From the NCBI GenBank assembly GCA_016198585.1, contig JACQII010000013.1:1-64000 (forward strand): a DNA stretch of 64,000 nucleotides, read 5' to 3'. Below the pieces are notes generated by a model. It saw only the letters and a list, made by a program, of their open reading frames with translations. It did not search any database and was not told the origin of the DNA. Positions 28,965-48,880 of this stretch are shown here, piece after piece (within the stretch, counting starts at the first letter, position 1; every line of letters begins with the position of its first letter). The stretch comes from Candidatus Aenigmatarchaeota archaeon. GTDB lineage: Archaea; Aenigmatarchaeota; Aenigmatarchaeia; QMZP01. The position numbers and the translations under genes are program-made.

Positions 28965-31469
28965 TCATGCCCGGTACCGCTTCATCAGCAGGCTGTTGCT
29001 GACCACCGAGACCGAGCTGAACGCCATCGCGGCCGCGGCGAGGATCGGGTTGAGGAGCAGGCCCGTGGCTGGGTAGAGGGCTCCCGCGGCGACGGGGATG
29101 AGTGCCGCGTTGTAGAAGAAGGCCCAGAACAGGTTCTGTCGGATCTTCTTGATGGTGTAGCGGCTGAGGCCGATCGCGCGCGCGACATCCCGCAGGTCGT
29201 TCCTGACCAGGACGATCCCGCCGCTCTCGATCGCGACGTCAGTTCCCGACCCAATCGCGATCCCGAGGTCGGCCTGCGCGAGTGCGGGCGCGTCATTGAT
29301 GCCGTCGCCGACCATGGCCACGACCTTCCCGGCTTCCTGGAGCTTCTTGACCTCGGCGGCCTTGTGCTCGGGCAGCACGTCGGCCAACACCTGGGTGATG
29401 CCGAGCTGCCGGCCGATCGCGGCCGCAGTCCGGGCGTTGTCACCCGTGATCATCAGGACGTCTTTCCCCATGCGCTGCAACTGCATGATCGCGTCGCGCG
29501 AATGGTCCTTCAGGGTGTCGGCCACGGCGATCAGCCCGGCGACCTTGCCATGGGCGGCGACGATCATGACGGTCTTGCCCTCCATCTCCAGGGCCTGGAT
29601 CCCCTTCTCGATCGCCGGCGTGACCGTGATCTTCCGCTCATTCATCAGCCGGCGGTTGCCGAGCAGCACGCGGACCGTGCCGACCCGGGCCTGGACGCCC
29701 CGGCCGGTCAAGGACCTGAACTCCCGGACAGCCGGGAGGGCGATCTTCATGGACTGGGCTTTGGCGACGATGGCCTCGCCGAGCGGGTGTTCCGACCCTT
29801 TCTCGGTCGCGGCGGCGAGCCGCAGCAGCTCCCGCTCCCGGACCGTGAACGGGACGACATCCGTGACTTCAGGCTCCCCTTTGGTGAGGGTGCCGGTCTT
29901 GTCGAAGATGATGGTCGTGACGTGGTGGGCGCGCTCCAAGGCCTCGCCGCCCTTGATCAGGATGCCCTGCTCTGCCCCTTTCCCGGTGCCGACCATGATC
30001 GCCGTCGGCGTCGCCAGGCCGAGCGCACAGGGACAGGCGATGATGAGGACGGCGATGAACGCGGTGAGCGCGAAGAGGAACGGTGTCAGCGAGAGGTACA
30101 TCTCGGCGAACGGCGAGCCCGCGAGTATCAGGCCTCCCAGGAAGTACCAGAACGCGAACGTGGCGATCGCGATCACGATCACCGCAGGCACGAACACGCC
30201 TGCGACCTGGTCGGCCATCCGCTGGATCGGGGCCTTGCTGCCCTGCGCCTCCTCGACGAGCTTGATGATCTGCGCGAGCATGGTGTCCTTCCCCACCTTG
30301 GCCGCCCGGACCCGCAGCAGGCCGTGTTTGTTCATGGTCGCACCGATCACCGTGTCGCCCTTCACCTTCTCGACCGGGATGGATTCCCCGGTGATCATGC
30401 TCTCGTCGACGCTCGAGTGGCCGTCCACCACCACGCCGTCGACCGGAACCTTCTGACCGGGCTTCACGAGGATGATGTCGCCGACCCGGACCTCGTCGAT
30501 GGGGATTTCCAGCTCTTTCCGGCCGCGGACCACCAGAGCAGTCCGGGGCTGGAGGCCCATGAGCTTCTTGATGGCTTCTGACGTCCTGCCACGGGCGATG
30601 GCCTCGAAATACCTGCCGAGCAGGATCAGGGTGATGATGACTGCGGCCGTGTCGAAGTAGATGGCGGTCATGCCCTCGCCGGTGGCGAAGAGTCCGGGCA
30701 CGAGGGCAGCGGCCGCGCTGGAGAGGTAGGCGGCAGACGTCCCGACCGCGATCAGGGTGTTCATGTCCGCGGTCCGGTTCTTCAGCGCGCCCCACGCGCC
30801 GCGGTAGAACGGCGCGCCGACCCAGAACTGGACCGGCGTCGCGAGAACCAGGAGGATGAGCAGGTTGTTCAGCGCCGCGGGAACCCACGGGAACCACTCC
30901 GGGAAACTTCCCAGGAAGAGCGGGACGCTGAGGACGGCGCCGACCAGGAGTTTCCGCCGCAGCTTCGCCAGCTCCTCCTTCCGGAGGAGCTGCTCCCGTT
31001 CCCCCGCGTCGTGCGCGATCTCGACCGCCTGGTAGCCGGCAGCCTTGATGGCCGCGATGATCGTCGCAGTCGTCAGCAGCTGCGGATCAAAGGAGACCAC
31101 CGCCTTCTCGTTCGGCGTGAGCTTCTGGGAGCGGATGCCCCGCAGGCGCTTCAGTCCCGCATCGACCGTCCGGACGCAGTGGCCGTTGTCCATGCCGATC
31201 ACCCGGAGCTCCAGGTAGCCGTCGCCGCCCTCGGGAACGAGGTCGTAGCCGATCTTCCGGACTGCCGCTTCGAACTCCTTCCTGCCCGCGCGCTGCGGGT
31301 CATAGGCGACGACGGCTTTCTCGGTGGCGAAGTTGACGCTCGCCGAGGCCACGCCGTCGATCTTGCGCAGGGCCCGCTCGACCCGCATCACGCAGGACGC
31401 GCAGTGCATGCCCTTGACGGAAAGAGTCTCGGTCTTGGGGGCCGTATGCTTGGACGTCATATATATCAT
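28965..31469 (-). CDS. copA: Cu(I)-translocating P1B-type ATPase
   Basis: The 834-residue pump has an N-terminal HMA domain (GMHCASC, 20-26), a second degenerate HMA domain (GMDNGHC, missing one Cys), the CPC membrane site ([13 protein letters not shown]), the phosphorylation site [11 protein letters not shown], the SEHPLG loop, the hinge [10 protein letters not shown], and the Cu(I)-specific C-terminal motifs YNAALIP and [12 protein letters not shown]. It should export Cu(I) or Ag(I). It faces a PadR-TRASH regulator gene across a shared TATA region. An alternative start is the in-frame ATG at 31460. Confidence 0.93.
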
Positions 31470-33342: not shown

Positions 33343-33365
33343 GTCAGCGTCTGGAGTGAGTCTTC

Positions 33366-34094: not shown

Positions 34095-34234
34095 CCACGT
34101 TCCGCTGCCCGGTCTGCGGTCTCCATTACCCAGACGCAACGCTCGCTGAGAAGTGTGCGGCCTGGTGCCGGACCCACCAGAGCTGCAACCTCGCGATCAC
34201 CCGCCACGCCGTCGCTTCTTCGGAATCGTCCTGA
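34091..34234 (+). CDS. Small Cys-rich zinc-ribbon-like protein, 47 aa
   Basis: The protein MTTFRCPVCGLHYPDATLAE continues KCAAWCRTHQSCNL and carries six metal-ligand candidates (C6, C9, C22, C26, H29, C32). It resembles a short conserved archaeal protein I know only as uncharacterised. It starts inside the stop codon of the HWH-motif gene and is probably its partner. Confidence 0.65.
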   Translation: MTTFRCPVCGLHYPDATLAEKCAAWCRTHQSCNLAITRHAVASSESS

Positions 34235-34273
34235 GTCAGTCAGCTCCGTCAGCGCGGAGACCAGAACACTCGT

Positions 34274-34771: not shown

Positions 34772-34823
34772 ACCTCTGGATTGGCTGAGCCCGCTTAAAA
34801 CCCTGCGCTTTCCCTTTAGTCAC

Positions 34824-35141: not shown

Positions 35142-35253
35142 GGCATCCCTTGCTCCCGCAGCCATAAATCCTTGCAGTTCCCGGACGGCCAGGCGAGACA
35201 GTGGCGCGCGGGTGACTGCCTGCTTTTTAATGCCGGTCGCCAGAAAGGTGTTC

Positions 35254-36162
35254 ATGTCCCTCGCGCCCTGGCTGCGGGAACTGCGGCTGCCGTTCCTCGC
35301 CGCGTCCATCCTCCCCGTCCTCCTGGGCGGCTCCCTCGTGTTCGCCGCGACCGGGACCGTTGACCTCGTCCTCTTCCTGCTGACCCTCGCGGCGATGGTC
35401 TGCCTCCACCTGGGCGCGAACGTCGCGAACGAGTACTTCGACTTCCGCAGCGGAACCGACGTCGTGAACACGCAGCGCACGCCCTTCTCGGGAGGGACTG
35501 GCCTCCTCCCGACCGGCCAGCTCAAGCCCGTGAGCGTCCACCGCCTCTCCCTGGCGTTCTTCGCGGCCGGGAGCCTGATCGGCCTCTCCCTGGTCGCGCT
35601 CCGCGGCCTGCCGGTCCTGGTCCTGGGACTGGTCGGGCTGGTCTCCGGCTACTGCTACACTGCCCCACAACTGAACTTCGCCCGCCGCGGCCTCGGCGAA
35701 CTGCTGGTCGGCTTCAATTTCGGCGTGCTCCCGGTCTTGGGGACGGTCCTGGTCCTGACCGGCGCCCTCTCCCTGCCGGCGGTCCTGGCCTCCCTGCCGC
35801 TGGCCTTCCTGATCACCGCCGTCCTCTACGTGAACCAGTTCCCCGATTACGAGGCCGACAAACAGGCCGGCAAGCGGCACCTGGTGGTCCGCCTCGGCCG
35901 GGCGCGGGCCGTCCGCGGCTACGAGCTGCTGCTCGTGGGAGCGTACCTCTCCCTCGGGCTCGCCATCGCCGTGGGCGCGCTCCCCCTGCTCGCTGGCCTC
36001 ACCTTCCTCACCCTTCCGCTGGCCGGCAAGGCTGCGCGCAACCTGCGCGCCCACCACTCCACCTTCCCCGCCATCATCCCCTCGAACGCCCTGACTGTCC
36101 TGGCCCACCTCGCCGCGGGCATCATCCTGGCCGTCACCGTGGCTGTGGCGCCGCTGTGGTGA
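35254..36162 (+). CDS. UbiA-family prenyltransferase (MenA-like)
   Basis: The 302-residue integral membrane protein has the two Asp-rich motifs of UbiA enzymes, NEYFDFRSGTD (near 68-78) and NQFPDYEADKQAGKR (near 193-207), and about eight transmembrane helices. The motif details are closest to 1,4-dihydroxy-2-naphthoate prenyltransferases, so it may build a menaquinone-type quinone. VKOR, encoded nearby, needs a quinone. The start follows a TATA box (gctttttaatg, 35222-35232). The polyprenyl synthase gene is next. Confidence 0.85.
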   Translation: MSLAPWLRELRLPFLAASILPVLLGGSLVFAATGTVDLVLFLLTLAAMVCLHLGANVANEYFDFRSGTDVVNTQRTPFSGGTGLLPTGQLKPVSVHRLSLAFFAAGSLIGLSLVALRGLPVLVLGLVGLVSGYCYTAPQLNFARRGLGELLVGFNFGVLPVLGTVLVLTGALSLPAVLASLPLAFLITAVLYVNQFPDYEADKQAGKRHLVVRLGRARAVRGYELLLVGAYLSLGLAIAVGALPLLAGLTFLTLPLAGKAARNLRAHHSTFPAIIPSNALTVLAHLAAGIILAVTVAVAPLW

Positions 36163-36170
36163 GGAGGGCC

Positions 36171-36929
36171 ATGGACCGCCTCGAAACCCTCGCCCGTGAC
36201 CTCCTCCCCGACCAGTATCTGCCGCCGTTCCTCTACGCCTTCGCGGGCGGGAAGCTCATCCGGCCACGGATCCTCCGGCTGGTCTGCGACCGCCTCGGGC
36301 AGGATCCCGTCCCCCTGGAAAAGGCCGCGCTCGCGATCGAGGTCCTCCACTGTGCGACGCTGCTGCACGACGACGTGGTCGACGGCGACGGCAGCCGCCG
36401 CGGGAAGCCGACCTTCCACGCCCGCTTCTCCCCGAAGCAGGCCATCCTCTCCGGGGATTACTTCGCGCTCACCGCACTCGACCTGGTCCAGCGCCACTAC
36501 CCGACGCTCACGACTGCCTTCCTGGCAGCTGTCCGGGACGTGGCCGTGGGCCAGCTGATGGAGTTCGCCCCGCTGCCCGACCTCCGGAGCTACCTGGACT
36601 ACGCGGACAAGAAGACGGCCTCGCTGTTCGCCCTCGCCGCGGCCGTCCCCTGCGCGGTCTTCCAAACCGATCTGGGCTGGATCGCCTGGGCGCGCGACCT
36701 GGGAGTCGCCTTCCAGATGGCGAACGACCTGCAGGGCAGTCCGAGGGAATCCCATTCGGTCCTGGCCGTCCTCTCGCGGAGCGAGGCCGAGCGCGACTTG
36801 GCCGCGCGGCGAGCGCAGCTGCAGCAGAAGGTGGAGAACAACGATCAGGAGTTTATAGCGGACATCCTGACGCCGCGGCCAGACTCTCAAGGGACTGCCG
36901 GCCGACCAGCCGCTGGCCGTCCTTCGTGA
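36171..36929 (+). CDS. Short polyprenyl diphosphate synthase-like protein
   Basis: The 252-residue protein has the first Asp-rich motif DDVVD (67-71) of trans-prenyltransferases with surrounding sequence (AIEVLHCATLLHDDVVDGDGSRRGKP), but the second is NDLQG (185-189) instead of DDxxD. It is about 70 residues shorter than usual. It may be a non-catalytic or altered-chain-length subunit. The SD ggtgaggagg precedes the ATG, 8 bp after the UbiA stop, so the pair forms an operon for quinone or lipid side chains. Its 3' end overlaps the convergent thioredoxin gene by 77 bp. Confidence 0.75.
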   Translation: MDRLETLARDLLPDQYLPPFLYAFAGGKLIRPRILRLVCDRLGQDPVPLEKAALAIEVLHCATLLHDDVVDGDGSRRGKPTFHARFSPKQAILSGDYFALTALDLVQRHYPTLTTAFLAAVRDVAVGQLMEFAPLPDLRSYLDYADKKTASLFALAAAVPCAVFQTDLGWIAWARDLGVAFQMANDLQGSPRESHSVLAVLSRSEAERDLAARRAQLQQKVENNDQEFIADILTPRPDSQGTAGRPAAGRPS

Positions 36930-37386
36930 TCCAGGTCGGGTAGCCGGTGATCCCTTTCTCGTCGCAGAGCGCGGGCTGGGCCTTTCCTTCCGGGTCTCCG
37001 GCAGCGCACTCCACGTAGTTCACCAGCCGGAACGAGTTCCCGAAGTCGAGCTTCTGGCGCGCGCAGTTCGGACACCAGTACGCCCCGTACTCGACCATTC
37101 CCTGGTCGGTCAGGCACTGGGCGAACGCATCATACTGGCCGGGCTGCTGGGTCATGTAGCCGGTGTAGGAGGAGACGCCGAACGCTGCGGCAGCGAGAAC
37201 CACGACGACCACGATGACCCACCCCGCGGTCTTGAGCCGCTTCCTGGTCCGGGCGGACCGCTCCTGCCCCTGGGACTGTGTCTCCCGCATCTCCCGTTCG
37301 AGGCGGCGCCGTTCCTTCCGCGACAGGCCAGGTCCGTCCTGCGGAGGCGTGGTCGGTTGGGGTGCATCCTGCGGAGATTCATCCAT
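36853..37386 (-). CDS. Membrane-anchored thioredoxin-like protein (CPNC)
   Basis: A basic cytoplasmic N-terminus (KERRRLEREMRE), one membrane helix (residues 55-72), and a thioredoxin-like domain with YGAYWCPNCARQK (C105, C108) and the GYPTW cis-Pro segment. This type of domain is usually fused to VKOR. Here VKOR is encoded 120 bp away on the other strand. It may be oxidised by VKOR or reduced by CcdA. A TATA box lies near 37408-37417. Confidence 0.85.
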   Translation of the reverse strand: MDESPQDAPQPTTPPQDGPGLSRKERRRLEREMRETQSQGQERSARTRKRLKTAGWVIVVVVVLAAAAFGVSSYTGYMTQQPGQYDAFAQCLTDQGMVEYGAYWCPNCARQKLDFGNSFRLVNYVECAAGDPEGKAQPALCDEKGITGYPTWITKDGQRLVGRQSLESLAAASGCPL

Positions 37387-37504
37387 ACCTCTTCCCTGGC
37401 AGCCGGGCTTTTAAACCTGCCGGTCTCCGCAGGGAAATCGGGCTGGACTGCTATCCTTCCGGAAATCCCCGGGTTTATATGGCGGCGCAACGAAAGAGAA
37501 TGGC

Positions 37505-37978
37505 ATGGGGACCAGGGAGCGCCGGAACCTGAAGATCATCGCCATCATCTCGGTGGTGAACATCCTGATCGCCGGCTACCTGCTCTACACCAAGTATTCA
37601 GGCGCCAAGAGCTTCTGCGACTTCTCTCCGGAGATCTCGTGCGACGCGGTGAGCCAGTCCCCCTACGCTGAGCTCCCGGCCAACTCCGGGATCCCGGTCG
37701 CGGGCCTCGGCGTCATCGCCTTCCTCCTCTTCCTCATCCCGACCCTTGCCCTCCTGCGCCAGTCCGGAGGCTTCCTCTTCAGCCGGCCGGTCGTCCACCG
37801 GCTCTTGCTCGTCTGGGGGATCTTCAGCCTGCTCTTCTACGTCTACCTCACCTACCTGGAGCTCTACGTGATCTACGCCCTCTGCCCGCTCTGCATCGTC
37901 ACCTTCGCCCTGACCATCGTCCTCCTCCCGTTCCTCGCGGACAACGTCCGCCTCGTCAAGAAGAAGGAGGCCTCATGA
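37505..37978 (+). CDS. VKOR-family membrane protein
   Basis: The 157-residue, four-helix protein has the VKOR cysteines: C38 and C46 in the loop (SFCDFSPEISCDAV) and the CPLC active site (C127, C130) facing quinone. It oxidises DsbA or thioredoxin partners and passes electrons to quinone, replacing DsbB. A TATA-like tract (gtttatatgg) lies about 28 bp upstream. It overlaps a thioredoxin-like lipoprotein gene (ATGA), its likely partner. Confidence 0.93.
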   Translation: MGTRERRNLKIIAIISVVNILIAGYLLYTKYSGAKSFCDFSPEISCDAVSQSPYAELPANSGIPVAGLGVIAFLLFLIPTLALLRQSGGFLFSRPVVHRLLLVWGIFSLLFYVYLTYLELYVIYALCPLCIVTFALTIVLLPFLADNVRLVKKKEAS

Positions 37979-38373
37979 ACCAACTCCCCGCACTCCTGGT
38001 CCTCGTCGGCGTCCTGGCCATCAGCGGCTGCACCGCTCCCGCGGCAGTGGACTATTCCGCCTTCAGCACCTGCGTCAAGGATGCAGGCGTGGTGGAATAT
38101 GGCGCCTATTGGTGTCCGAACTGCGCGCGGGTCAAGCTGACCCTCGGCGACGCCTGGAAGAACCTGGCCTACGTCGAATGCGACCCCAAGTGCGTGGCCA
38201 ACGCCCAGGGCGCCCTGCCCGACTTCTGCAACGGTTTCACCAGCCAGACCGACCAGTGCCTGCAGCTCGGTGTCGACAAGTACCCGAGCTGGGAGAAGGA
38301 CGGGCAGATCCTCTACGTCGGGACTGACCTGGCCAGGGTCGCGGAGATCAGCGGCTGCGCGCTGCCTGAGTAG
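37975..38373 (+). CDS. Thioredoxin-like lipoprotein (CPNC)
   Basis: A lipoprotein signal with lipobox ISGC (C19) is followed by a thioredoxin-like domain with YGAYWCPNCARVK (C47, C50), several other cysteines (C33, CDPKC, DFC, QC) and the cis-Pro region DKYPSW. The gene overlaps VKOR and lies 3 bp before a CcdA-like gene, so it may sit between oxidising and reducing membrane partners. Confidence 0.88.
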   Translation: MNQLPALLVLVGVLAISGCTAPAAVDYSAFSTCVKDAGVVEYGAYWCPNCARVKLTLGDAWKNLAYVECDPKCVANAQGALPDFCNGFTSQTDQCLQLGVDKYPSWEKDGQILYVGTDLARVAEISGCALPE

Positions 38374-38376
38374 CCT

Positions 38377-39228
38377 ATGAAAACCTCGAAGACGGCCGCC
38401 CGCGGCCCCGGTGCGCAGAGCAGGACCACCATCTACGCGAAGCGGTCGCCCCGCCGCCGGCTGGTCGGGATCGGCATCATCTACATCGTCGCCGTCTACC
38501 TGACCTACCTCCTTGCCGGCCTCGGCCTCATCTGGTTCCAGGGCACGCTGATCACCCTCGGCCTCGCCGTCTACCTGGGCGCGGTCGTGGGCGTCATCCT
38601 GCTCGCCTTCGGCCTGCTGGAGATCAAGGACTTCTTCTGGTACGGGCGCGGCCTCTCCCTGGCCATCCCGACCCGGTTCACCGCGACGATCAAGGCCCGG
38701 GCGGCCCATGTGACCGGAGTTGGCGCGATTCTCCTGGGGATCTTCGTGGCCATGGTCGAGCTGCCCTGTACGGGAGGACCGTACCTGGCCATCACCGCTA
38801 TCCTGGCCGGAGGCTTCGACTCCCTCGCCTTCTCCTACCTCGCCCTCTACAACTTCATCTTCGTCCTCCCGCTCATCATCATTGTCGCGCTCGCCGCGCT
38901 CGGCGTGCGGTACGAGAAGATGAAGGCCTGGAAGGAGACCCGGAAGAAGTGGATGCGCCTCGTGGCCGGCCTGCTCCTGGTCTGCTTCGGCGTCTTCATC
39001 CTCGCCTACTACGCCGGCCTGGTCAACCTGGAGTACATCGGCGTCTCCACCGGACCGGGCCAGGCGATCAGCCTGCAGACCCTGACCCTGCCCGTCATCC
39101 TGATCACCGCCGCCATCGACTCGGTCAACCCCTGCGCGATCGGCGTGCTCCTGCTGTTGATCGCGACCCTGGTCTCCGTGAGCCGGGCAGAGAAAGTCCA
39201 GATCAAGCAGGCGATCGCGGACAGATAG
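38377..39228 (+). CDS. Circularly permuted CcdA/DsbD-beta-like protein
   Basis: The 283-residue membrane protein contains all CcdA helices but in changed order. Residues 30-215 match helices 2-6 of the paralog at 40292 (IYIVAVYLTYLLAGLGL, IKDFFWYGRG, VELPCTGGPYLAI with C131). The first helix of CcdA, with the second redox cysteine (ITAAIDSVNPCAIGVLLLLI, C253), comes at the C-terminus. Both ends are basic (KRSPRRR; SRAEKVQIKQ), as expected if both face the cytoplasm. It should move reductant across the membrane to thioredoxin-like proteins such as the one encoded just upstream. Confidence 0.85.
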   Translation: MKTSKTAARGPGAQSRTTIYAKRSPRRRLVGIGIIYIVAVYLTYLLAGLGLIWFQGTLITLGLAVYLGAVVGVILLAFGLLEIKDFFWYGRGLSLAIPTRFTATIKARAAHVTGVGAILLGIFVAMVELPCTGGPYLAITAILAGGFDSLAFSYLALYNFIFVLPLIIIVALAALGVRYEKMKAWKETRKKWMRLVAGLLLVCFGVFILAYYAGLVNLEYIGVSTGPGQAISLQTLTLPVILITAAIDSVNPCAIGVLLLLIATLVSVSRAEKVQIKQAIADR

Positions 39229-39265
39229 AGCCCACGGGAGCGGTCAGTCCACGTTCTGAGAGCGG

Positions 39266-39427
39266 CTAGCAGAACTCGCAGACCGCTTTCTTGGCCTTCT
39301 TGGGGATGGCTGCGGCCTTCTTCGTGAACTGGTCGAGACACTTCTTCGTGTCGAAAAACTTGCCCTTGAGGAAGAGGGCAGTTCCCCGCTGGACTTCGTG
39401 GCCGCACATGGCGCAGGTCAGGACCAT
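39266..39427 (-). CDS. Small TRASH-like metal-binding protein, 53 aa
   Basis: Reading from the ATG at 39427 gives MVLTCAMCGHEVQRGTALFL then KGKFFDTKKCLDQF, ending AVCEFC. The C-x2-C...FDTKKC pattern resembles a stand-alone TRASH domain, with an extra C-terminal Cys pair. It might be a copper chaperone or sensor partner. A TATA box (cctataaatag, near 39452-39462) lies about 28 bp upstream. Confidence 0.65.
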   Translation of the reverse strand: MVLTCAMCGHEVQRGTALFLKGKFFDTKKCLDQFTKKAAAIPKKAKKAVCEFC

Positions 39428-39493
39428 AGTCTCACTTCCTTATTGGGGCCAGGCCCTATTTATAGGTTGGCCGACGGCCTCCCCGGGAGGCGG

Positions 39494-39913
39494 CTAGTCT
39501 TCCGCGAACGCGCGCTTGCGGGCAAATGCCCGGATCTGGGCGCGATGGCCGATGAACAGGTTCTTGGGCAGCTTCTTCAGGTCAAACCATGCCCAAGTGG
39601 CGCATTTCTCGGGTTCCCTCCGCTTCGGCGTCCCCTGGACGCCCGCCGCCAGGAATCCGACTTGCAGGTAGTGGTGTGCCTGGTGGGCGTTGTTCACGAG
39701 GTTGGCGAACGTCAGGCGGCGCGCGCGCAGGCCCGTCTCCTCCCGGAGCTCCCGTCTCGCGGCGTCGGTCATCGCCTCCTTGTATTCCAGGTGTCCGCCG
39801 GGCAGCCCCCACGTCCCCGCGCCATAGGCATGGAGCCGCTTGCCGAGGAGCAGTTTCCCCTTGCGAATGACAAAGACGTTGACGCCGGCACGGATGCGGT
39901 CGTCACGGTGCAT
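39494..39913 (-). CDS. Nudix hydrolase
   Basis: The 139-residue protein has a complete Nudix box at 40-62 (GHLEYKEAMTDAARRELREETG), with VNVFVIRKGKLLLGKRL before it. It is of the small MutT/ADP-ribose pyrophosphatase type. The substrate cannot be told from the sequence. Confidence 0.9.
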   Translation of the reverse strand: MHRDDRIRAGVNVFVIRKGKLLLGKRLHAYGAGTWGLPGGHLEYKEAMTDAARRELREETGLRARRLTFANLVNNAHQAHHYLQVGFLAAGVQGTPKRREPEKCATWAWFDLKKLPKNLFIGHRAQIRAFARKRAFAED

Positions 39914-39974
39914 GCTGGAGATTGGCTTCCGGCCTAATAAAAGAGCGCTCCCTGGCAGCGTCCAGCCGCCCCGC

Positions 39975-40247
39975 TCACGAGACGTCCCGGTGTGTCCGGT
40001 ACATGAACGCCGCGTCCTTGTGGTGCTTCGCGATCTGCCTGGTCACTTCCTTGAAGAGCTGGTCGGCGGTGACGGCCGGCTTGGCCGCGATCCAGGTTTT
40101 CACGCCCCGGGAGACCTTCTCGCAGATCTTTTCCGCCTCCCGGTGGGGCACGTGGGAGGAGAGGCAGGCCGCGTAGCAGGAGGCGTAGACCTTCCGCTCG
40201 TCGAACCGTTCCTTGTGCCCTTGCCGCTTCACGACATGTTGCTGCAT
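39975..40247 (-). CDS. Stand-alone ATP-cone domain protein
   Basis: The 90-residue protein follows the ATP-cone pattern: VVKRQGHKERFDERKVYASCYAACLSSHVP...AEKICEKVSRGVKTW...TADQLFKEVTRQIAKHHKDAAFMYRTHR. ATP-cones normally regulate ribonucleotide reductase or NrdR; here it is alone and has C24 and C28. It follows the CcdA gene in the same direction, 44 bp away, so nucleotide control of a redox function is possible. An ATG at 40253 is an alternative start. Confidence 0.8.
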   Translation of the reverse strand: MQQHVVKRQGHKERFDERKVYASCYAACLSSHVPHREAEKICEKVSRGVKTWIAAKPAVTADQLFKEVTRQIAKHHKDAAFMYRTHRDVS

Positions 40248-40291
40248 ACTCATGACCTCGATCCCGTTTCCGGTTGCGCCTTTCCAAAGGC

Positions 40292-41002
40292 TCAGCCGAA
40301 GTTGATGGTCCCGTTCGCGATCAGCATCAGCAGCCAGCCCATGGCGATCAGCATCAGCCCGGTGAAGAGCCGCATGTAGCCGCGGTTCTCCTGCTTCCAC
40401 TTCTTGACGTCCTGGAGCTTCTTGCCGCCGGCGACGGCGAACAGGATGATCACCAAGGGGAGCACGAAGATGATGTTATAGAGGATCAGCATCAGCAGGG
40501 CGGTGAAGTCGAAGTACTGGGAGAGCAGGGTGATGATCGCCAGGTACGGCGCGCCCGTGCAGGGCAGTTCAACGGCCGAGACGAACGCGCCGAGCGCGAC
40601 CACGCCTGGGAGCGTGGTCTTCGAGGCGTAGCCGTGGATCTTCTTCGCGAGGAAGCCCGGGATCTGCAGCGAGAAGCCCCGGCCGTACCAGAAGAAGTCC
40701 TTGATCTCGAACGCCCCGGCGGCGATGATGAACATCCCCACGATGATCGAGAGGTACTCGGTCAGGACCAGCGGGATCGAAGAGAAGAAGTACACCAGGC
40801 CGAGCCCGGCGAGCAGGTAGACCGCGAACACGCTCAGGATGTAGACCCCGCCGTAGAGCAGCAGCTTCCCGGTCGACTTCTTCCCGGCCAGGATCACCGA
40901 GATCATGAGGATCAGCACGCCGATCGCGCAGGGGTTGATCGAGTCGATCGCCCCGGTCAGCACGACCGTCGTCAGCGTCGGCAGGTAGGCCTCTACTGCC
41001 AT
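40292..41002 (-). CDS. CcdA/DsbD-beta-like membrane protein (normal order)
   Basis: The 236-residue, six-helix protein has the two redox cysteines of the CcdA family in the usual order: DSINPCAIG in helix 1 (C25) and VELPCTGAPYLAI in helix 4 (C148), with EIKDFFWYGRG between. It carries electrons from cytoplasmic thioredoxin to extracytoplasmic thiol proteins. It provides the reference for the permuted paralog at 38377. Confidence 0.9.
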   Translation of the reverse strand: MAVEAYLPTLTTVVLTGAIDSINPCAIGVLILMISVILAGKKSTGKLLLYGGVYILSVFAVYLLAGLGLVYFFSSIPLVLTEYLSIIVGMFIIAAGAFEIKDFFWYGRGFSLQIPGFLAKKIHGYASKTTLPGVVALGAFVSAVELPCTGAPYLAIITLLSQYFDFTALLMLILYNIIFVLPLVIILFAVAGGKKLQDVKKWKQENRGYMRLFTGLMLIAMGWLLMLIANGTINFG

Positions 41003-41932: not shown

Positions 41933-42802
41933 CTAGCCCACGGTCCACGAGAACTCTCGCGTTGCCACGCCATGGAGGTCGGCGAATGCGAGGGTGAGCG
42001 ACTGCGGCGAACCGGTCAGCGCGGGGAAAACCAGGGTGCCCGCAAGGTGGTGGCCGCCCGGAGGCGGGCCGTCCCAGCGCACGAGGGGGTAGGTCCTGCC
42101 CGCGTCATCCCGCAGGGTCGCCGCGGCCGAAAAGTCATATGCCAGGCTGCCTTGGTGAGTCGTGAAGGTCGCGTCGATGAGCGTCCCTTCTGCGCTCAAC
42201 CGAGGAGTAGCCGTGATCTCCAGGCCGTTCTCGCTGGCTGTTTGCGGTGCCAGCGGCCCCGCACGCGCAGGCAGGGCAACGATCGGAAAGAGGAGGAACG
42301 CGACAAGGACGACGACCGATCCCGCGACAGCGGCGTCCCTCACCTTGAGCAGGTCGTAGCGGAACAGTCCTGGGAAACGGCCCCGGTGGAGGCCGTGGCG
42401 CTGGATGACCTGCAACATCACGATGATGCCGACGATGTTCGAGAGGACGCCGAGGAGCAGGAACGCCGGCTGGAACTCCAGGAGGAACGCCCCCACCACC
42501 GTGGCCCCCAGGACCGGGACCAGGTCCGTGACGTGGTGCACGCAGCACGCTGCCATGGATCCGGCAGTCATCCCGCCCGTGGACGCGACGGTGGCCCCAG
42601 CGCCCGGCATGGTCATCGCCGCCCGGACGAAGGAAAACAAACCCACCTGCGTCCCGAACCCGGCGGCGAGGGGTACGAGGAAGTACCATTCCCCCGCGAA
42701 CTGCTCGATCAGGTGTTCCGGTCCATTCGCGATGCCGAGGAGCAGGGCGTAGGCTCCGAGGAGCGACAGTGCCGCGATGATGCCGAAGAGCGCGGGTTTC
42801 AT
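41933..42802 (-). CDS. Multispanning membrane protein with CCxHH motif
   Basis: The 289-residue protein has about five helices and a motif ACCVHHVTD (C86, C87, H89, H90, D93), a likely metal site in the membrane, then a C-terminal extracytoplasmic beta domain (about 200-289). I know this type only as an uncharacterised archaeal family. It has an SD site (aaggag) and starts 4 bp from the end of the upstream gene, so it is the last gene of the 42-45.5 kb operon. Confidence 0.65.
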   Translation of the reverse strand: MKPALFGIIAALSLLGAYALLLGIANGPEHLIEQFAGEWYFLVPLAAGFGTQVGLFSFVRAAMTMPGAGATVASTGGMTAGSMAACCVHHVTDLVPVLGATVVGAFLLEFQPAFLLLGVLSNIVGIIVMLQVIQRHGLHRGRFPGLFRYDLLKVRDAAVAGSVVVLVAFLLFPIVALPARAGPLAPQTASENGLEITATPRLSAEGTLIDATFTTHQGSLAYDFSAAATLRDDAGRTYPLVRWDGPPPGGHHLAGTLVFPALTGSPQSLTLAFADLHGVATREFSWTVG

Positions 42803-42805
42803 GGG

Positions 42806-43345
42806 TCACTCCTTGCAGCAGTCGACGAGCTTCTTGACGATCGCGGAAAAACGTGACAAGGAAGGATTTCCTGGACTCCTGTCGGCCGGCTTCGCCGGGC
42901 CCGGAGGATCGCCGGCGATCTTGAGGTTGATGGCGAAGAATAGGGAGTAGAGGTGGAAGGAGGCGGTGAAGAGCCGTTCAGCTTCCTTCCGGGATCCCTG
43001 CGAGAGTTCCTTGGTCCCCACCTCGAGCAGCCGCATGCTGGCTGCGAGGAGGTGCTTGCTGATGCACCATTCCTCTCCTGCGGGGTTGGTGACGATCTTC
43101 TGCAGGAGGGTCTTGCGCAGCGTGCGCACGCCATTGAGCATGTCCAAGTAGGCCGGTTTCTCGGTCTTCATGGCCGTAAAGAAGAAGTGCTCTTCCAGCG
43201 AGACCAGGTTCATCAGCGCGATGCTGAGGTCCTCGTCCTTGGACAGGTCGAACGTGCCTTTCTTCACCTGTTCCAGCTTCCCCATCCACTCTTTCACTTC
43301 ATGTTCCATACGATCGTGTTCCTTCTGGCTATCCGAATGCGACAT
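42806..43345 (-). CDS. Hypothetical helical protein of the envelope operon, 179 aa
   Basis: The protein is soluble and helical, with conserved-looking segments LVSLEEHFFFTAMKTEKPAYL and WCISKHLLAASMRLLEVGTKEL, and ends VDCCKE. It resembles an uncharacterised conserved archaeal family, not a known enzyme. It may be the cytoplasmic partner of the membrane proteins in the operon. Its start overlaps the previous gene by 17 bp. Confidence 0.6.
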   Translation of the reverse strand: MSHSDSQKEHDRMEHEVKEWMGKLEQVKKGTFDLSKDEDLSIALMNLVSLEEHFFFTAMKTEKPAYLDMLNGVRTLRKTLLQKIVTNPAGEEWCISKHLLAASMRLLEVGTKELSQGSRKEAERLFTASFHLYSLFFAINLKIAGDPPGPAKPADRSPGNPSLSRFSAIVKKLVDCCKE

Positions 43346-43859
43346 ACAACCCCAATCCGGCCACGAGCAGCAACGAGACCGTGAGCACCACTCCCTGGAA
43401 TGGGAAGAGCACCCGGTGCCTAACCTGCTTGATCAGGAGATGCGCCCGCCACGCGAAGAGCGTCACCGGCACGGCAATGATCCCGCCCACCACGAGCTTG
43501 TTCACCCAGTAGACACGGTTGAGGAGCGATCCCGGTTCGCCTGCCAGCAGGAGCGGGACATAGAGGCTGTCTGCCGGGAGGGCGAACAGCGGGAGGACGG
43601 CGAGCAGGATCGATCCGACGATCACGAGCTGGGTCTGGAAGCGCACCCATCGCTTCCTCAGGTGGGCGAGGATCCACAGGCCGGTAGAGATCCCCATCGC
43701 CCCCCAGAAGAGTCCGACGACGCTCTGGTCGACACCGTAATAGGTAGCAGTGCTTGCCGCGATGCCCACTGCCCCCAGACAGAGCGGGCAATGCGCCCGC
43801 ACTGGGGGGAGGAACGCCAGCGACAGCAGTGCCGTTGCCGCGGTCAGGAGCGATTTCAT
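43329..43859 (-). CDS. Membrane protein with HCPLC motif
   Basis: The 176-residue protein has a signal-like first helix, an exposed AHCPLCLGAVG motif right after it (H23, C24, C27), and about four more helices. A C-x2-C near the membrane surface is suitable for disulfide exchange or metal transfer. The start at 43859 has its SD (ggtgaggag) overlapping the stop of an 18-codon mini-gene. Confidence 0.65.
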   Translation of the reverse strand: MKSLLTAATALLSLAFLPPVRAHCPLCLGAVGIAASTATYYGVDQSVVGLFWGAMGISTGLWILAHLRKRWVRFQTQLVIVGSILLAVLPLFALPADSLYVPLLLAGEPGSLLNRVYWVNKLVVGGIIAVPVTLFAWRAHLLIKQVRHRVLFPFQGVVLTVSLLLVAGLGLYVAFG

Positions 43860-43864
43860 GCTCC

Positions 43865-43921
43865 TCACCGGCAGCAGCAATCTCGCTGGTCCTTTTCCTG
43901 CTTCTTCTTTTCCTTTTTCAT
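43865..43921 (-). CDS. 18-residue mini-gene ending in CCCR
   Basis: The peptide MKKEKKKQEKDQRDCCCR has an excellent SD (aaaaggag) 8 bp before its ATG, and its stop codon overlaps the SD of the next gene. A charged helix with three terminal cysteines could be a metal-binding peptide. It could also be a leader peptide whose translation through Cys codons controls the following gene. Confidence 0.45.
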   Translation of the reverse strand: MKKEKKKQEKDQRDCCCR

Positions 43922-43963
43922 ACGATTGCTCCTTTTGATTGACTTTCCCTTTCTCCATGCGCT

Positions 43964-44215
43964 TCACGTCCGTCTTCCGTCTCTCTGACAGCCGCCGACC
44001 ATGGACGGCAGGGCGGGGGCCGAGGCAGCGGGTGCCTGGACCTGGTCAGGATGCATCCGCGCCATCATCTGCTCATAGGTCTCCTCCCCCGGGTTCGCGG
44101 CTGCAGTCACGGCGCCGGTCAGCGTCTGGGACTGGAGCCCGCCGATCTGGACTGCCTGGACGATGGTCGCTACCAGCAACACCAGGGTAAGGGACAGTAG
44201 GATTGCATTTGTCAT
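43964..44215 (-). CDS. Small membrane-anchored protein with MVGGC tail, 83 aa
   Basis: One N-terminal membrane helix (NAILLSLTLVLLVATIVQAVQ) is followed by an external region rich in Ala, Met and Gln, ending MVGGCQRDGRRT. The protein at 44492 ends in the same MVGGC. A perfect SD (aaggaggtga) precedes the ATG, which overlaps the DUF5676-like stop (ATGA). Function unknown. Confidence 0.6.
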   Translation of the reverse strand: MTNAILLSLTLVLLVATIVQAVQIGGLQSQTLTGAVTAAANPGEETYEQMMARMHPDQVQAPAASAPALPSMVGGCQRDGRRT

Positions 44216-44490
44216 CGTGTCACCTCCTTCGAATGAAACCGATTCCATAGGACCGCGAAGAGGGCGGCGAGGATGGCGGTCGCGATGAGACTGGTCACGA
44301 AGCCTGCGGCCACCTCGGTCAGGCCGGCCTCGCGGGCAATGGCCTGGAGGTCAATCCCGTGGAACCAGAGGCCGAATAGCCCGCGTGCAGCGTCTGGGAC
44401 AGCCAGAAAGAGGGCTGCGCAGGCCAGGTAGACGACGGCCACGAAGGCCGTGACCGTCGCTACGAATGGTCGGAGGGAAAGGGTTGTCAT
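44212..44490 (-). CDS. DUF5676-like two-helix membrane protein
   Basis: The 92-residue protein has two membrane helices with the pattern FVAVVYLACAALFLAVPDAARGLFGLWFHGIDL... and a final LFAVLWNRFH, matching DUF5676, a small family that tends to occur with heavy-metal and thiol genes. Its role is unknown. Confidence 0.7.
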   Translation of the reverse strand: MTTLSLRPFVATVTAFVAVVYLACAALFLAVPDAARGLFGLWFHGIDLQAIAREAGLTEVAAGFVTSLIATAILAALFAVLWNRFHSKEVTR

Positions 44491-44491
44491 G

Positions 44492-45157
44492 TCAGCACCC
44501 TCCTACCATCCCGCTCCCGCTGGCGCTCGCCCCTTTCTCGATGCCGCGGTAGGCATTCGAGGCCAGGTTGCTGTAGGTCAGCTCGATGCCCTGTTGCTGC
44601 AGGATCTCGGCCTTCTTGATGTGCTGGCCAGGGAAGAAGAGGACTTTCCACTTCCCCATCTCATCCAGAACCTGGGCGTCCGTGTACTCGTCGCCATGCG
44701 TGGTGATGAGGTACTTCGCGAGGCCGCGCATCGCGAAACTGTGGGCGCACCCGCATGCTGGAGCCCCGTTCTCGAAGATGATGGACTTCGCGCCGCAACA
44801 GTACTCGCAGCTGATCTGGCTGGCGATGGCGATATACCGTTGGAGGTCATCACCGCTCAGGGTGATCTGCTGGTCGAGCACCCCGAGCCTTCTGATGGTC
44901 GCGTCGGCTACCTGAGGGGTGGCCGACGAGACATCGGAGAAGCTCACCCCGAGTTCTGCGCCGTAGACCGCAGGCACGCCCTGCGGGATGACGGAGTAAC
45001 CGGCCGTCGTCACCGGCGTGGGCGGAACTGCCGCCACCACGTTTCCCGCTGTCGCCAACCCGTCAGCCGGGCTCCCGGTCAGGCGGGCGATCTGGAGCGA
45101 GTTGATGGTCGCCACCGCGAGGGCAACGACGAGCAGGGAAGCAATGATCCGTTCCAT
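44492..45157 (-). CDS. Membrane-anchored protein with CEYCCG/CGCAHS motifs
   Basis: A short N-terminal helix is followed by a domain with ISCEYCCG (C117, C120, C121) and ACGCAHSFAMRGLAKYLI (C135, C137, H139), then DEMGKWKVLFFPGQHIKKAEIL, and a terminal MVGGC (C221). The Cys/His motifs suggest a metal or cluster site outside the membrane. It resembles an uncharacterised archaeal family. It is the second gene of the operon. Confidence 0.65.
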   Translation of the reverse strand: MERIIASLLVVALAVATINSLQIARLTGSPADGLATAGNVVAAVPPTPVTTAGYSVIPQGVPAVYGAELGVSFSDVSSATPQVADATIRRLGVLDQQITLSGDDLQRYIAIASQISCEYCCGAKSIIFENGAPACGCAHSFAMRGLAKYLITTHGDEYTDAQVLDEMGKWKVLFFPGQHIKKAEILQQQGIELTYSNLASNAYRGIEKGASASGSGMVGGC

Positions 45158-45161
45158 GTGC

Positions 45162-45494
45162 TCACCCGCCTCCGTGGCAGGACGCCATCGGGCCTGCTCC
45201 CTGTATATCTCCCATCCCGCGGTGGTGCTGGGCCATGGCGTTCCTGTCGGCCAGGGAAGGCTGCGTTTCCATGAATTGGATCATGGACGCTTCCTCTTCC
45301 GCGGACAGTTCCCCATGCATGGCTTCGTGCATGCGCACGTGTGCAGCTGCATCCAGCACTGCCAGGGCTCCTCCACTCTGCCCGTCCATGCCCATCATCC
45401 CCCCAAGCGGGGTATCGGTGTGGGCACGTGCAAGGCCTATCGCGAGCACGGTCAGGACGCCGGCCGCGACGATTGCAATGATTTTGTCGGTCAT
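45162..45494 (-). CDS. Exported Met/His-rich protein, 110 aa
   Basis: A signal or anchor helix (IIAIVAAGVLTVLAIGLARA) is followed by a region with many Met and His residues: GGMMGMDG, HVRMHEAMH, AQHHRGMGD and PMASCHGGG. This composition is typical of extracytoplasmic Cu(I)/Ag(I) binders. It is the first gene of the operon, with SD aaggaga. Its promoter region, with two GAAAC palindromes, faces the membrane HTH gene. Confidence 0.65.
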   Translation of the reverse strand: MTDKIIAIVAAGVLTVLAIGLARAHTDTPLGGMMGMDGQSGGALAVLDAAAHVRMHEAMHGELSAEEEASMIQFMETQPSLADRNAMAQHHRGMGDIQGAGPMASCHGGG

Positions 45495-45532
45495 GGTGTT
45501 GTCTCCTTGCCCTCCCGTTGGGTGAAACACCA

Positions 45533-45619
45533 GATATAGGTAGTGGAGAAACTAGTTTCAATCCTCTAGCTATTGGTTTTGAAACTCGCGAGCGGCACAG
45601 GGCCGACGCCTTTATAAGG
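45533..45619. promoter_or_regulatory. Divergent promoters with GAAAC palindromes
   Basis: The TATA box for the minus operon reads cctatatctg (about 45532-45541); the one for the plus gene is gcctttataagg (45608-45619), about 25 bp from the ATG at 45639. Between them lie the perfect palindrome GAAACTAGTTTC (45548-45559) and a related site GTTTTGAAAC (45576-45585). These are probable operators of the membrane HTH regulator. Confidence 0.6.
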
Positions 45620-45638
45620 CGGAAAGAGAAGGACTGGC

Positions 45639-46157
45639 ATGGCTCCCACCATGCGCATGGCAGGGTACCTACTGGTCGTCGTGTCCATTGCCCTGCTGGC
45701 CGCGCTCTCGGTCGTGAAGGCTGACGTGGACATACAGGCCGCGTTCCTCTGCGAGATGATCAGCGAAGCAGGCCAACCCATGAACATCTGTCCCGCCCAT
45801 ACAAGCAACACCTCCTGGGTCATCACGGGCGCGTTCGGCATTGCCTTCCTCATCCTTGGCGTCGGAACGTACATGACCCTGCAGCCCCGGGGTGCGCTCT
45901 CCACGGCGATACCCGGTGGCCGCGAGCCTGAAGGAAAGCGGCAGGTGACTCCTCCCGATCCCGCTCATCTTGACCAGGAGGAAAACGTCCTCTGTGACCT
46001 GCTGGTGAAGGGCGGGGGTTCCGCATACCAATCCGACCTCATCCGAAGTTCTGGCATGAGCAAGGTGAAGGTTACCCGGATTCTCGACAAGATGGAAGCC
46101 AAGGGCATGCTTGAGCGCCGCCGCCGCGGCATGGCAAACATCATCGTCCTCAAGTGA
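45639..46157 (+). CDS. Membrane-bound winged-helix regulator
   Basis: The 172-residue protein has two membrane helices (residues 8-28 and 60-79) and an external loop with C38, M40, M48, C51 and H54, then a cytoplasmic MarR-like winged helix (ENVLCDLLVKGGGSAYQSDLIRSSGMSKVKVTRILDKMEAKGMLERRRRG). It can sense a metal or oxidant outside and bind DNA inside. It diverges from the Cys/His/Met operon and probably regulates it. Confidence 0.8.
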   Translation: MAPTMRMAGYLLVVVSIALLAALSVVKADVDIQAAFLCEMISEAGQPMNICPAHTSNTSWVITGAFGIAFLILGVGTYMTLQPRGALSTAIPGGREPEGKRQVTPPDPAHLDQEENVLCDLLVKGGGSAYQSDLIRSSGMSKVKVTRILDKMEAKGMLERRRRGMANIIVLK

Positions 46158-46234: not shown

Positions 46235-48880
46235 ATGGAGTGGCACACGCTGCCTGAAGCCGACGCTTTCGCGCAGCTGCAATCCTCGCCCGCCGGGCTG
46301 GCAGAGGACGAGGCCGCCCGGCGACTGGAGAAGCTGGGACCGAACGAACTCCGCCAGGAGAAGAAAATCAGCCCGCTGAAGCTCTTCCTCGCGCAGTTCC
46401 GCAACTTCCTCATCCTGATCCTGATCGCGGCCACGGTCTTCTCCTTCGCGATCGGCGAGGCAGTCGACGGCGCCGTCATCCTCGTCATCGTCATCCTCAA
46501 CGCAGTCTTCGGCTTCGTCCAGGAATACCGGGCCGACAAGGCGATCGAGTCGCTCAAGAAGCTCACCTCTCCTGAAGCGGTCGTGCTCCGTGGCGGGGAG
46601 ATGAAAAAGCTGCCGTCGCGGTTGCTCGTCCCCGGAGATATCGTGCTGCTCGACGAAGGGTCGAAAATCCCCGCTGACTTGCGCCTGCTCGAGGCGGTGA
46701 ACCTGAAGATCGACGAAGCCTCGCTGACCGGGGAGAGCGAGCCCGTGACCAAGAAGCCCGGCGTCCTCGCGAAGGCCGAACTCGCCGACCGGGTGAACAT
46801 GGCCTACACCGGCACGCACGTGACCTACGGCCGCGGCCGCGGCGTCGTCGTGGCCACGGCCATGGAGACCGAGATCGGGAAGATCGCCCACCTGATCCAG
46901 GAGACCGAGGTCGAGGCCACGCCGCTCCAGAAGCGGCTCGCGGTCTTCAGCCGCTACCTGGGCTACCTGATCCTGGCGATTTCAGTAATCGTCATTATCG
47001 GCGGGTTCCTCCGCGGCCACGAGCTGTTCGACATGATCCTCACCGGCGTCGCCCTCGCCGTGGCTGCGATTCCAGAGGGCCTGCCCGCGATCGTCACCAT
47101 CACCCTCGCCCTGGGCCTCCAGCGGCTCTCGAAGGAGCATGCCCTGATCCGCCGGCTGCCCGCGGTGGAGACCCTGGGCTCGACCTCGGTGATCTGCTCG
47201 GACAAGACCGGCACGCTCACGAAGAACGAGATGACCGTGCGGAAGGCCTGGATCGCCGGCCGCCTCCTGGACATCACCGGGACCGGATATGCCACGGTCG
47301 GGACGTTCAACTACAACGGCAAGGCCCTCGACCGCACGTTCCCCGGGCTGGCCCCGCTCATCAGGACGGCGACCCTCTGCAACAACGCCGTCCTCGCGCC
47401 GTCAGGGATGATCGGCGACCCGACCGAAGGCGCGCTGCTCGTCGCCGCGGCCAAGCTCGGCGACCTGGAGACCTTCCCGCGGGTCGAGGAGGTTCCCTTC
47501 TCCTCCGAGCGCAAGATGATGTCCACCGTCCACACGGTCGGCGGCAAGCGGGTACTCTTCGCGAAGGGCGCGCCCGAAGTCATCCTCAGCCGCTGCACGA
47601 AAGCCCTGGCCGACGGGAAGGAGATCGCGCTGGACGAGAAGCAGCGCCAAACCATCCTCGCCGCCAACCAGGACCTCGCCGACCAGGCCCTGCGCGTCCT
47701 GGGCTTTGCGACGCGCGAGATCGCCGGCCCGGCGAACGAGACTAACCTGGTCTTCCTAGGCCTGATCGGCATGATTGACCCGGCGAGGGAGTCGGTCGAG
47801 GGCGACATCGCACTCTGCCGCCAGGCCGGGATCCGGGTCGTGATGATCACCGGCGACCACCGGCACACGGCCGTGGCGATCGCGAAGGACATCGGCCTCT
47901 ACCGAGACGGCGACGACATCCTCACGGGCGAGGAGCTGGACGGTCTCGATGAAGCGGCGTTCCAGGCCCGGGTGGAGAAGGTCGCGGTCTACGCGCGCGT
48001 GAACCCCTCCCACAAGGCCCGGATCGTCGACGCTCTCAAGAAGAACCGGCACGTCGTCGCCATGACGGGCGACGGCGTGAACGACGCGCCTGCCCTGAAG
48101 AAGGCCGACATCGGGATCGCCATGGGCATCAAAGGAACTGATGTCGCGAAAGAAGCGTCGCAGATGGTCCTCACCGACGACAACTTCAGCTCCATAGTCT
48201 CCGCGGTCCGGACCGGCCGCGGCATCTACGACAACATCAACAAGTTCATCCGCTTCCTCCTCTCGAGCAACATCGCCGAAGTCCTGACCGTCTTCCTGGC
48301 CCTCCTGCTCTCCGCCGCGGGCGGCGAGCCGCTGCTGCCGCTGCTCGCGGTCCACCTGCTCTGGATCAACCTCATCACCGACGGCCTCCCTGCCCTCGCC
48401 CTCGGCGTCGACCCGGGCGCCAAGGACATCATGACCCGGAAGCCGCGGCCGCTCACTGAGAAGCTGCTCTCCCGCGAAGCCTTCGTATTCATCCTGGGTG
48501 TCGGAGCGATCATCACCGCCGGGACGCTCTGGGTCTTCTGGTCCGAGCTGCCCAACGGCCTGGAGAAGGCCCAGACCATGGCCTTCACCACCATCGTGCT
48601 CTTCGAGCTCTTCAACGTCTTCAATGTCCGCGGGCTCTTCCTGAAGGGCGGGCTCGGTCTGCTCTCGAACAAGAAGCTGCTTCTCGCCGTCGCGGTCTCC
48701 TTCGGCCTCCAACTCGCCGTCCTCGAGATCCCCACACTCCAGGCGCTGTTCTCGACGACCTCGCTCACCTCGGCCGACTGGCTCAAGATCGTCGCGACCT
48801 CGGTCACCGTTCTGTTGTGGGAGCCTGTTGTGCGGATCGCGACCGGCCCTCCCCGCAGACCAGCGGCGACCGGTCACTAG
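46235..48880 (+). CDS. P-type calcium-transporting ATPase (type II)
   Basis: The 881-residue pump has the cation ATPase N-terminal domain, TGESEPV, the membrane motif AVAAIPEGLPAIVTITLALG of Ca2+-type pumps, the phosphorylation site [14 protein letters not shown], the hinge TGDGVNDAPALKKADIG, and the C-terminal helices with NLITDGLPALALG. It should export Ca2+ or a similar cation. A TATA-like tract (gcggtttatctg) lies about 30 bp upstream. Length is normal. Confidence 0.93.
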   Translation: MEWHTLPEADAFAQLQSSPAGLAEDEAARRLEKLGPNELRQEKKISPLKLFLAQFRNFLILILIAATVFSFAIGEAVDGAVILVIVILNAVFGFVQEYRADKAIESLKKLTSPEAVVLRGGEMKKLPSRLLVPGDIVLLDEGSKIPADLRLLEAVNLKIDEASLTGESEPVTKKPGVLAKAELADRVNMAYTGTHVTYGRGRGVVVATAMETEIGKIAHLIQETEVEATPLQKRLAVFSRYLGYLILAISVIVIIGGFLRGHELFDMILTGVALAVAAIPEGLPAIVTITLALGLQRLSKEHALIRRLPAVETLGSTSVICSDKTGTLTKNEMTVRKAWIAGRLLDITGTGYATVGTFNYNGKALDRTFPGLAPLIRTATLCNNAVLAPSGMIGDPTEGALLVAAAKLGDLETFPRVEEVPFSSERKMMSTVHTVGGKRVLFAKGAPEVILSRCTKALADGKEIALDEKQRQTILAANQDLADQALRVLGFATREIAGPANETNLVFLGLIGMIDPARESVEGDIALCRQAGIRVVMITGDHRHTAVAIAKDIGLYRDGDDILTGEELDGLDEAAFQARVEKVAVYARVNPSHKARIVDALKKNRHVVAMTGDGVNDAPALKKADIGIAMGIKGTDVAKEASQMVLTDDNFSSIVSAVRTGRGIYDNINKFIRFLLSSNIAEVLTVFLALLLSAAGGEPLLPLLAVHLLWINLITDGLPALALGVDPGAKDIMTRKPRPLTEKLLSREAFVFILGVGAIITAGTLWVFWSELPNGLEKAQTMAFTTIVLFELFNVFNVRGLFLKGGLGLLSNKKLLLAVAVSFGLQLAVLEIPTLQALFSTTSLTSADWLKIVATSVTVLLWEPVVRIATGPPRRPAATGH

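Follow-up and report, generated by a model that had tools for sequence, protein, structure and literature searches.

Gene content of the locus and its conservation

The window analyzed here is a stretch of 64,000 nucleotides from a Candidatus Aenigmatarchaeota archaeon (contig C7:1-64000 of a 0.94 Mb genome that is 76% complete), and its subject is an operon of eight small minus-strand genes accompanied by a divergent plus-strand regulator gene (Table 1). The genes are densely packed, neighbours overlapping or lying a few bases apart, and all nine were present as an earlier note on this DNA had listed them. The regulator is composed of two transmembrane (TM) helices, an external loop with a Cys pair (CEM...CPAH), and an internal DUF7343/MarR-like winged helix. 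Within the operon and regulator, only two assignments were above the Pfam cut-off, namely DUF5676, to which the earlier note had likened the same protein, and the winged helix of the regulator (DUF7343, 45.4 bits against a cut-off of 27.6, with MarR); no operon family scored above cut-off in NCBIfam. No homologue of the exported Met/His-rich protein was found in the relatives' loci examined. A longer open reading frame (ORF) for the anchor gene begins at 44248.

Table 1. Features of the operon, its upstream region, and the CopA gene in the window
Feature	Position	Strand	Basis or remark
Membrane one-component regulator	45639..46157	+	Pfam DUF7343, E 7.2e-12; family in 46/49 well-covered loci
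Perfect palindrome GAAACTAGTTTC, proposed operator	45548..45559	not applicable (.)	Sequence, copy counts
TATA-like sequence CCTATATCT, between palindrome and half-site	45532..45540	-	Sequence; 26 sites have a TATA-like consensus here
Downstream half-site GTTTC (minus strand), exactly 19 nt from palindrome as in consensus	45524..45528	-	
Exported Met/His-rich protein, 122 amino acids, lineage-specific	45162..45530	-	
CEYCCG/CGCAHS protein: N-terminal anchor, putative CcmH-like helical domain with CxxCC and CxCxH, ends MVGGC	44492..45157	-	
DUF5676 two-TM protein	44212..44490	-	Pfam PF18926, E 4.6e-11, 43.9 bits against gathering score of 27.6
Small single-span anchor, Met/His motif MMARMHP, MVGGC	43964..44218	-	ATG at 44218
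18-codon mini-ORF ending DCCCR, with Shine-Dalgarno sequence, abuts HCPLC start	43865..43921	-	Sequence reading
HCPLC multi-span membrane protein	43329..43859	-	Family in 62/80 loci; invariant HCPxC
Predicted cytosolic helical protein ending DCCKE	42806..43345	-	40/80 loci; alignment
CCxHH membrane protein, C-terminal PPGGHH domain	41933..42802	-	44/80 loci; alignment
CopA-type Cu(I) P1B-1 ATPase, about 10 kb beyond operon end	28965..31469	-	TIGR01525, E 1.1e-203; motifs read

A scan of GTDB returned 257 pattern matches for the CEYCCG protein, 231 of which were confirmed, and the locus counts given below were taken from the best 80. Nearly all of these loci belong to DPANN archaea (Woese-, Pace-, Nano-, Aenigm-, and Micrarchaeota, and Diapherotrites); three (L114, L118, and L134) come from bins labelled as Bacteroidetes, Nealsonbacteria, and Yanofskybacteria, reflecting mis-binning or transfer. 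The regulator and the small anchor were each found in 65 loci, followed by the HCPLC (62), CCxHH (44), and DCCKE (40) proteins, a P-type ATPase (36), and DUF5676 (24). The second sample consisted of 195 related genomes, and the Fisher tests and co-occurrence p values reported here were not corrected for their relatedness. CEYCCG relatives were present in 35 of the 195, and HCPLC was encoded by 20 of these 35 compared with 10 of the other 160 (p 4e-11). Because the families, the gene order, and the operator described below recur across DPANN phyla, we conclude that the operon is real, widely conserved, and more than the product of chance. The earlier note had proposed a search for conserved gene order in other archaea and would have counted a neighbourhood conserved nowhere as refutation; the neighbourhood proved to be conserved.

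The regulator and a conserved palindrome

The palindrome GAAACTAGTTTC at 45548-45559 is the sole exact copy in the window genome, and 51 copies were found in the 80 GTDB loci, where three control 12-mers gave 0, 1, and 0. It lies mostly 30-70 bp upstream of the CEYCCG gene and recurs across DPANN phyla; several more loci have a palindrome with one or two mismatches at the same place. At 30 sites a third half-site, GTTTC, is located 18-20 nt downstream (19 nt in 26 of them and in the window), with a TATA-like element between, which in the window reads CCTATATCT. The regulator (E≤1e-20) was encoded by 39 of the 46 palindrome-bearing genomes (p 3e-19), and in 29 of the 34 same-contig cases compared the palindrome was within 150 bp of the regulator gene. 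The earlier note had singled out the divergent membrane protein as the likely switch, a role that the conserved palindrome beside its gene strengthens. The Cys pair between the two TM helices was invariant in an alignment of 32 regulators, which had been chosen for having such a pair (62 of 73 family ORFs have one), and the winged helix also contained invariant residues.

The palindrome is not confined to the operon. In relatives it also precedes genes for proteins that start with HMA-type GMxCxSC motifs, and in L075 it lies upstream of a PCYCGC gene. Other small Cys-rich or single-span proteins are encoded behind it in L180, L186-L188, L191, and L206. The palindromes before such genes suggest a regulon wider than the operon. 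The TATA-like element lies between the sites, and for this reason repression is preferred; relief of that repression by a signal is our simplest guess for how the putative operator might work.

A shared MVGGC tail and a possibly CcmH-like protein

Three features go beyond the earlier note: the palindromic putative operator, a common MVGGC tail on unrelated proteins, and the CcmH-like fold predicted for the CEYCCG protein. In the 80 loci, the exact ending MVGGC was found in 72 CEYCCG ORFs and in 68 of 72 closed anchor-family ORFs, three further anchor ORFs ending in QVGSC, and 22 short ORFs outside both families end in MVGGC as well. Besides CEYCCG, a locus may thus encode a small single-span protein with this ending and, in many cases, a third that is smaller still, which makes up to three types of membrane-anchored carrier. 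A single strongly hydrophobic stretch near the N-terminus was present in each of the 93 small tail-bearing ORFs; therefore, by the usual topology of signal anchors, the tail is probably outside the cell. Eighteen of the 93 small MVGGC proteins carry, before the TM helix, N-terminal CC extensions (MSDCCK, MDCCS) placed in the cytosol (L067, L083, L102, L110, L116, and others), and similar motifs recur in the CCCR mini-ORF and in the DCCKE protein. At the nine positions that precede the tail of the small proteins, the commonest residue accounted for 19-45%, compared with 97-100% at the five tail positions, a contrast that owes something to selection, given that the ORFs were chosen for a G[GS]C ending; the unselected measure is the 68 of 72 given above.

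Twenty-six of the 195 genomes contained the DNA pattern for MVGGC followed by a stop; 25 of the 35 CEYCCG genomes had it, compared with one of the remaining 160 (p 8e-24). This last match, in G178, was judged to be a chance occurrence; no listed ORF of at least 40 amino acids seems to end there. A further match, at the level of the DNA pattern, lies in G108 (L056, 959-976, minus strand) about 5 kb from the CEYCCG gene of that genome. Gene content, tail, operator sequence, and their association were all established by computation.

Such an ending might mark the proteins for C-terminal processing or sorting, a dedicated membrane enzyme cleaving or lipidating the terminal Cys and so fixing them at the surface. 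In favour of this explanation, the pentapeptide is exact and strictly terminal, and the unrelated proteins that carry it have a single anchor and a linker of low conservation before the tail. However, C-terminal sorting tags of the PGF-CTERM or LPXTG type are found on many exported proteins genome-wide, whereas MVGGC carriers number one to five per genome and almost all lie beside CEYCCG. Moreover, the carriers are already anchored at the N-terminus, the smallest lack any further exported domain that could be sorted, and in the 49 loci with enough flanking sequence no candidate enzyme accompanies all tails. No strict single partner of every tail was found in these 49 loci, the most constant companions being the regulator (46) and HCPLC (40). 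We therefore regard a processing signal as unlikely.

The tail could also be a by-product of the Shine-Dalgarno sequence (GGNGG) of the next gene, as a Shine-Dalgarno-like core is present in 93 of 162 tails, the following gene often begins only a few bases beyond the stop, and the first Gly codon is GGA in 55% of cases against a background of 42%. Nevertheless, the frame is constant, the M, V, and C residues, which a Shine-Dalgarno sequence does not require, are conserved, the third bases of the codons vary synonymously, and 19 of the 162 tails are followed by no start. A Shine-Dalgarno origin as the main cause, which leaves the frame and the M, V, and C residues unexplained, was rejected as highly improbable; some tails may serve as both ribosome-binding sequence and protein feature.

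Deviant tails (QIGGC, QVGGC, and QQGGC) often deviate alike in the two neighbouring genes. Among 77 pairs, 383 tail positions matched, compared with 370 after shuffling (p≤5e-5). The codons differed at 181 of the 304 shared residues, so gene conversion is not needed as an explanation. In six loci CEYCCG is without the tail and the anchor keeps one (three MVGGC and three QVGSC).

The CEYCCG protein itself had no Pfam match at E≤1, and a PDB sequence search with its profile gave nothing credible. The AlphaFold2 model (mean predicted local distance difference test score, pLDDT, of 89) has helices at residues 81-97, 102-112, 138-154, 160-174, and 176-188, and its best match in VIA-align was the CcmH N-terminal domain (2kw0), with a Z of 6.1 over 78 of 81 residues; the next match had a Z of 2.9. 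In profile comparisons CEYC was aligned with the CxxC of CcmH, with P values of 0.017, 0.0049, and 0.00076 as the CEYCCG set was widened, and the widest profile scored 26.7 against CcmH compared with at most 22.3 in 100 column shuffles. The CxxC of CcmH is situated in the loop that joins helices 1 and 2 (PMC3884852), and C117-C121 of CEYCCG lie likewise between the helices at 102-112 and 138-154. The CcmH family model, PF03918, found nothing in the window genome and did find matches in four control genomes. The profile and model comparisons support, but do not prove, a distant relationship between CEYCCG and CcmH.

Copper, thiol redox, and relation to known systems

The CPC, YNxxxxP, and MxxSS motifs together are the signature of Cu(I) P1B-1 ATPases. 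Of the 34 long ATPases in the loci, 29 carry all three, four are cut short and lack the C-terminus, and one has CPH; hence 29 of the 30 with a C-terminus carry the signature, the sole exception being in a bacterial bin. L134 has an ATPase with CPH and the tail MVGDC. N-terminal HMA (21) or YHS (10) motifs are recurrent in the locus ATPases. In relatives' loci a DUF411 gene (Pfam E about 1e-24) is located between the anchors and HCPLC, and its product matches the solved CopG structure 6wis in the PDB (E 1.3e-20). CopG binds a tetranuclear Cu cluster via CxCC (PMC7558416), and CGCC was present in 40 of 47 DUF411-like ORFs. Five of the 195 relatives have DUF411, all five within the 25 tail-bearing genomes (p 2e-5). 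Other proteins recurrent near the loci are PadR (with a weak TRASH match), DsbA, thioredoxin-domain, DUF302, and PCYCGC proteins. A thioredoxin-CcdA fusion is encoded in four loci without HCPLC and in no HCPLC locus, and this mutual exclusion offers the suggestion only that HCPLC may be a substitute for CcdA. The HCPLC model was confident (pLDDT 91.6); assignment of its fold failed, with no PDB match at E≤0.001 and all VIA-align matches below Z 6.5, where unrelated proteins tied.

The window has a CopA of its own, with HMA (GMHCASC), CPC, YNxxxxP, and MxxSS motifs. It lies in an apparent copper/thiol-redox island (26113-41002), in which the names other than CopA come from reading the sequence: DsbA-like, HMA-domain membrane protein, cupredoxin-like, thioredoxin-like, and CcdA-like genes, a VKOR-like gene (37505-37978), and, beside CopA, a PadR-type regulator with a TRASH-like Cys motif (31524-31940). 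One CcdA-like gene (38377-39228) has the usual first segment, SVNPCAIG, at its C-terminal end, in contrast to the CcdA-like gene at 40292-41002, and is possibly circularly permuted, rearranged, or affected by assembly. A Ca-type P-type ATPase gene (46235-48880) adjoins the locus and has no established link to the operon.

Taken together, the surrounding genes (CopA, DUF411/CopG, CcdA, DsbA, TRASH, YHS, and PCYCGC) appear to indicate copper(I) and thiol redox. The earlier note had read the genes as a dedicated system for a soft metal or thiols, and that reading has gained from the conservation and can be narrowed to copper and thiol redox. It had also supposed that the system moves its substrate across the membrane; transport is more simply assigned to CopA than to the operon itself. 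The note's view that the set could not be mapped to a known system holds only in part, as CopA, DUF411/CopG, CcdA, TRASH, and YHS connect it to known chemistry.

One could envisage that the operon serves thiol/disulfide homeostasis or the folding of exported proteins and that the copper genes are mere neighbours. The CcmH-like CEYCCG and the nearby thioredoxin-domain proteins, DsbA, and CcdA fusions would fit such a role, and in some loci, such as L033, L035, and L056, CEYCCG and an anchor stand beside a large protein (a thioredoxin-domain protein in L056) with no CopA in the stretch. Against this, Cu-type ATPases, CopG, TRASH, YHS, and HMA proteins recur, some of them behind the same palindrome, and a role in thiol chemistry alone seems to us rather unlikely. 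Another soft metal (Ag or Hg), or metal acquisition instead of copper defence, is very unlikely: Cys, Met, and His ligands do not discriminate, and transport could in principle run either way, yet the P1B-1 signatures are of the Cu(I)/Ag type and DUF411/CopG is tied to copper resistance (PMC7558416).

We consider it quite probable that the operon belongs to a copper/thiol regulon, and infer from the gene content that copper is the signal. At the outer face of the membrane, the external Cys pair of the regulator would respond to copper or to its redox effect, and the internal winged helix would bind GAAACTAGTTTC and the half-site that flank the TATA-like box, with repression as the presumed sign of regulation. 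The operon would then make exported, membrane-tethered Cys proteins, among them CEYCCG as a CcmH-like thiol-disulfide protein and small proteins made of one TM helix, a flexible linker, and a C-terminal MVGGC. These Cys arms may bind Cu(I), hand it on, or transfer thiol electrons among CEYCCG, DUF411/CopG-type partners, and CopA, and membrane reductants (CcdA-type, or perhaps HCPLC instead) would keep the arms reduced. This specific arm mechanism is put forward tentatively. Equally tentative is the idea that the system constitutes a new extracytoplasmic metal/thiol relay, in which a common partner would read the identical MVGGC arm of unrelated tethered proteins and a membrane-embedded regulator would act through a DPANN-wide operator. 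For the combined proposal, a DPANN copper(I)/thiol stress regulon together with the Cys-arm mechanism, we lean slightly towards acceptance.

Several observations weigh against this proposal. A helical Z of about 6 may be unspecific, reflecting a common helical arrangement; Foldseek with the CEYCCG model gave no match at E≤0.001, and the hhalign probability for CEYCCG and CcmH was at most 29%, below the usual level of certainty. The test of paired tails shuffles across related genomes, and shared ancestry inflates its result, as it does the Fisher tests. The earlier note had described the window anchor as MVGGC-tailed; the pentapeptide is there but is not terminal, being followed by seven residues, QRDGRRT (43964-43988), where nearly all relatives stop after the Cys. 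The tail M is replaced by Q in some genomes, which argues that Met is not an essential ligand. An upstream palindrome could equally serve activation, the role of HCPLC is a guess from mutual exclusion in few loci, and the window genome, at 76% completeness, yielded no DUF411.

Much of what DPANN archaea encode has no assigned function, and these widespread organisms are poorly understood. The open-access literature yielded no relevant paper on DUF5676, DUF7343, or MVGGC, nothing evident on this system under DPANN and copper resistance, and no prior description of the system. The regulator, operator sequence, and target gene set can be predicted genome by genome, and several conserved unnamed families become testable in one copper/thiol framework. 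An exact C-terminal pentapeptide common to unrelated surface proteins is unusual, and it hints at a terminal-Cys-arm chemistry that could be assayed with peptides.

Four known systems invite comparison. In bacterial copper resistance by CopG/DUF411 and CopA (PMC7558416), as in many of the loci described here, a CopA-type ATPase and an exported CxCC protein occur together, and the window genome encodes such a Cu(I) P1B-1 ATPase (28965-31469); it differs in the lack of a detected DUF411, and the DPANN loci add CEYCCG, MVGGC anchors, HCPLC, DCCKE, CCxHH, and the membrane-bound regulator. CEYCCG may resemble the three-helix bundle with CxxC in the helix 1-2 loop that belongs to the CcmH/CcmG/CcdA thioreduction branch of cytochrome c maturation (PMC3884852), and CcdA-type and thioredoxin-like partners lie near it. 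CcmH acts on the CxxCH of apocytochrome c. Unlike CcmH, however, CEYCCG has additional Cys/His residues, the MVGGC tail, and a copper context, in a genome with no PF03918 match. The PCYCGC family (PF13798) also comprises exported Cys-motif proteins, which some of these loci encode and which in L075 follow the palindrome, whereas CEYCCG matches no Pfam family at the threshold given above. Finally, archaeal PadR-TRASH copper regulators, one of which appears to lie beside the window CopA, likewise exert copper-associated winged-helix control, whereas the operon regulator, which has no TRASH domain, is embedded in the membrane and presents an external Cys pair.

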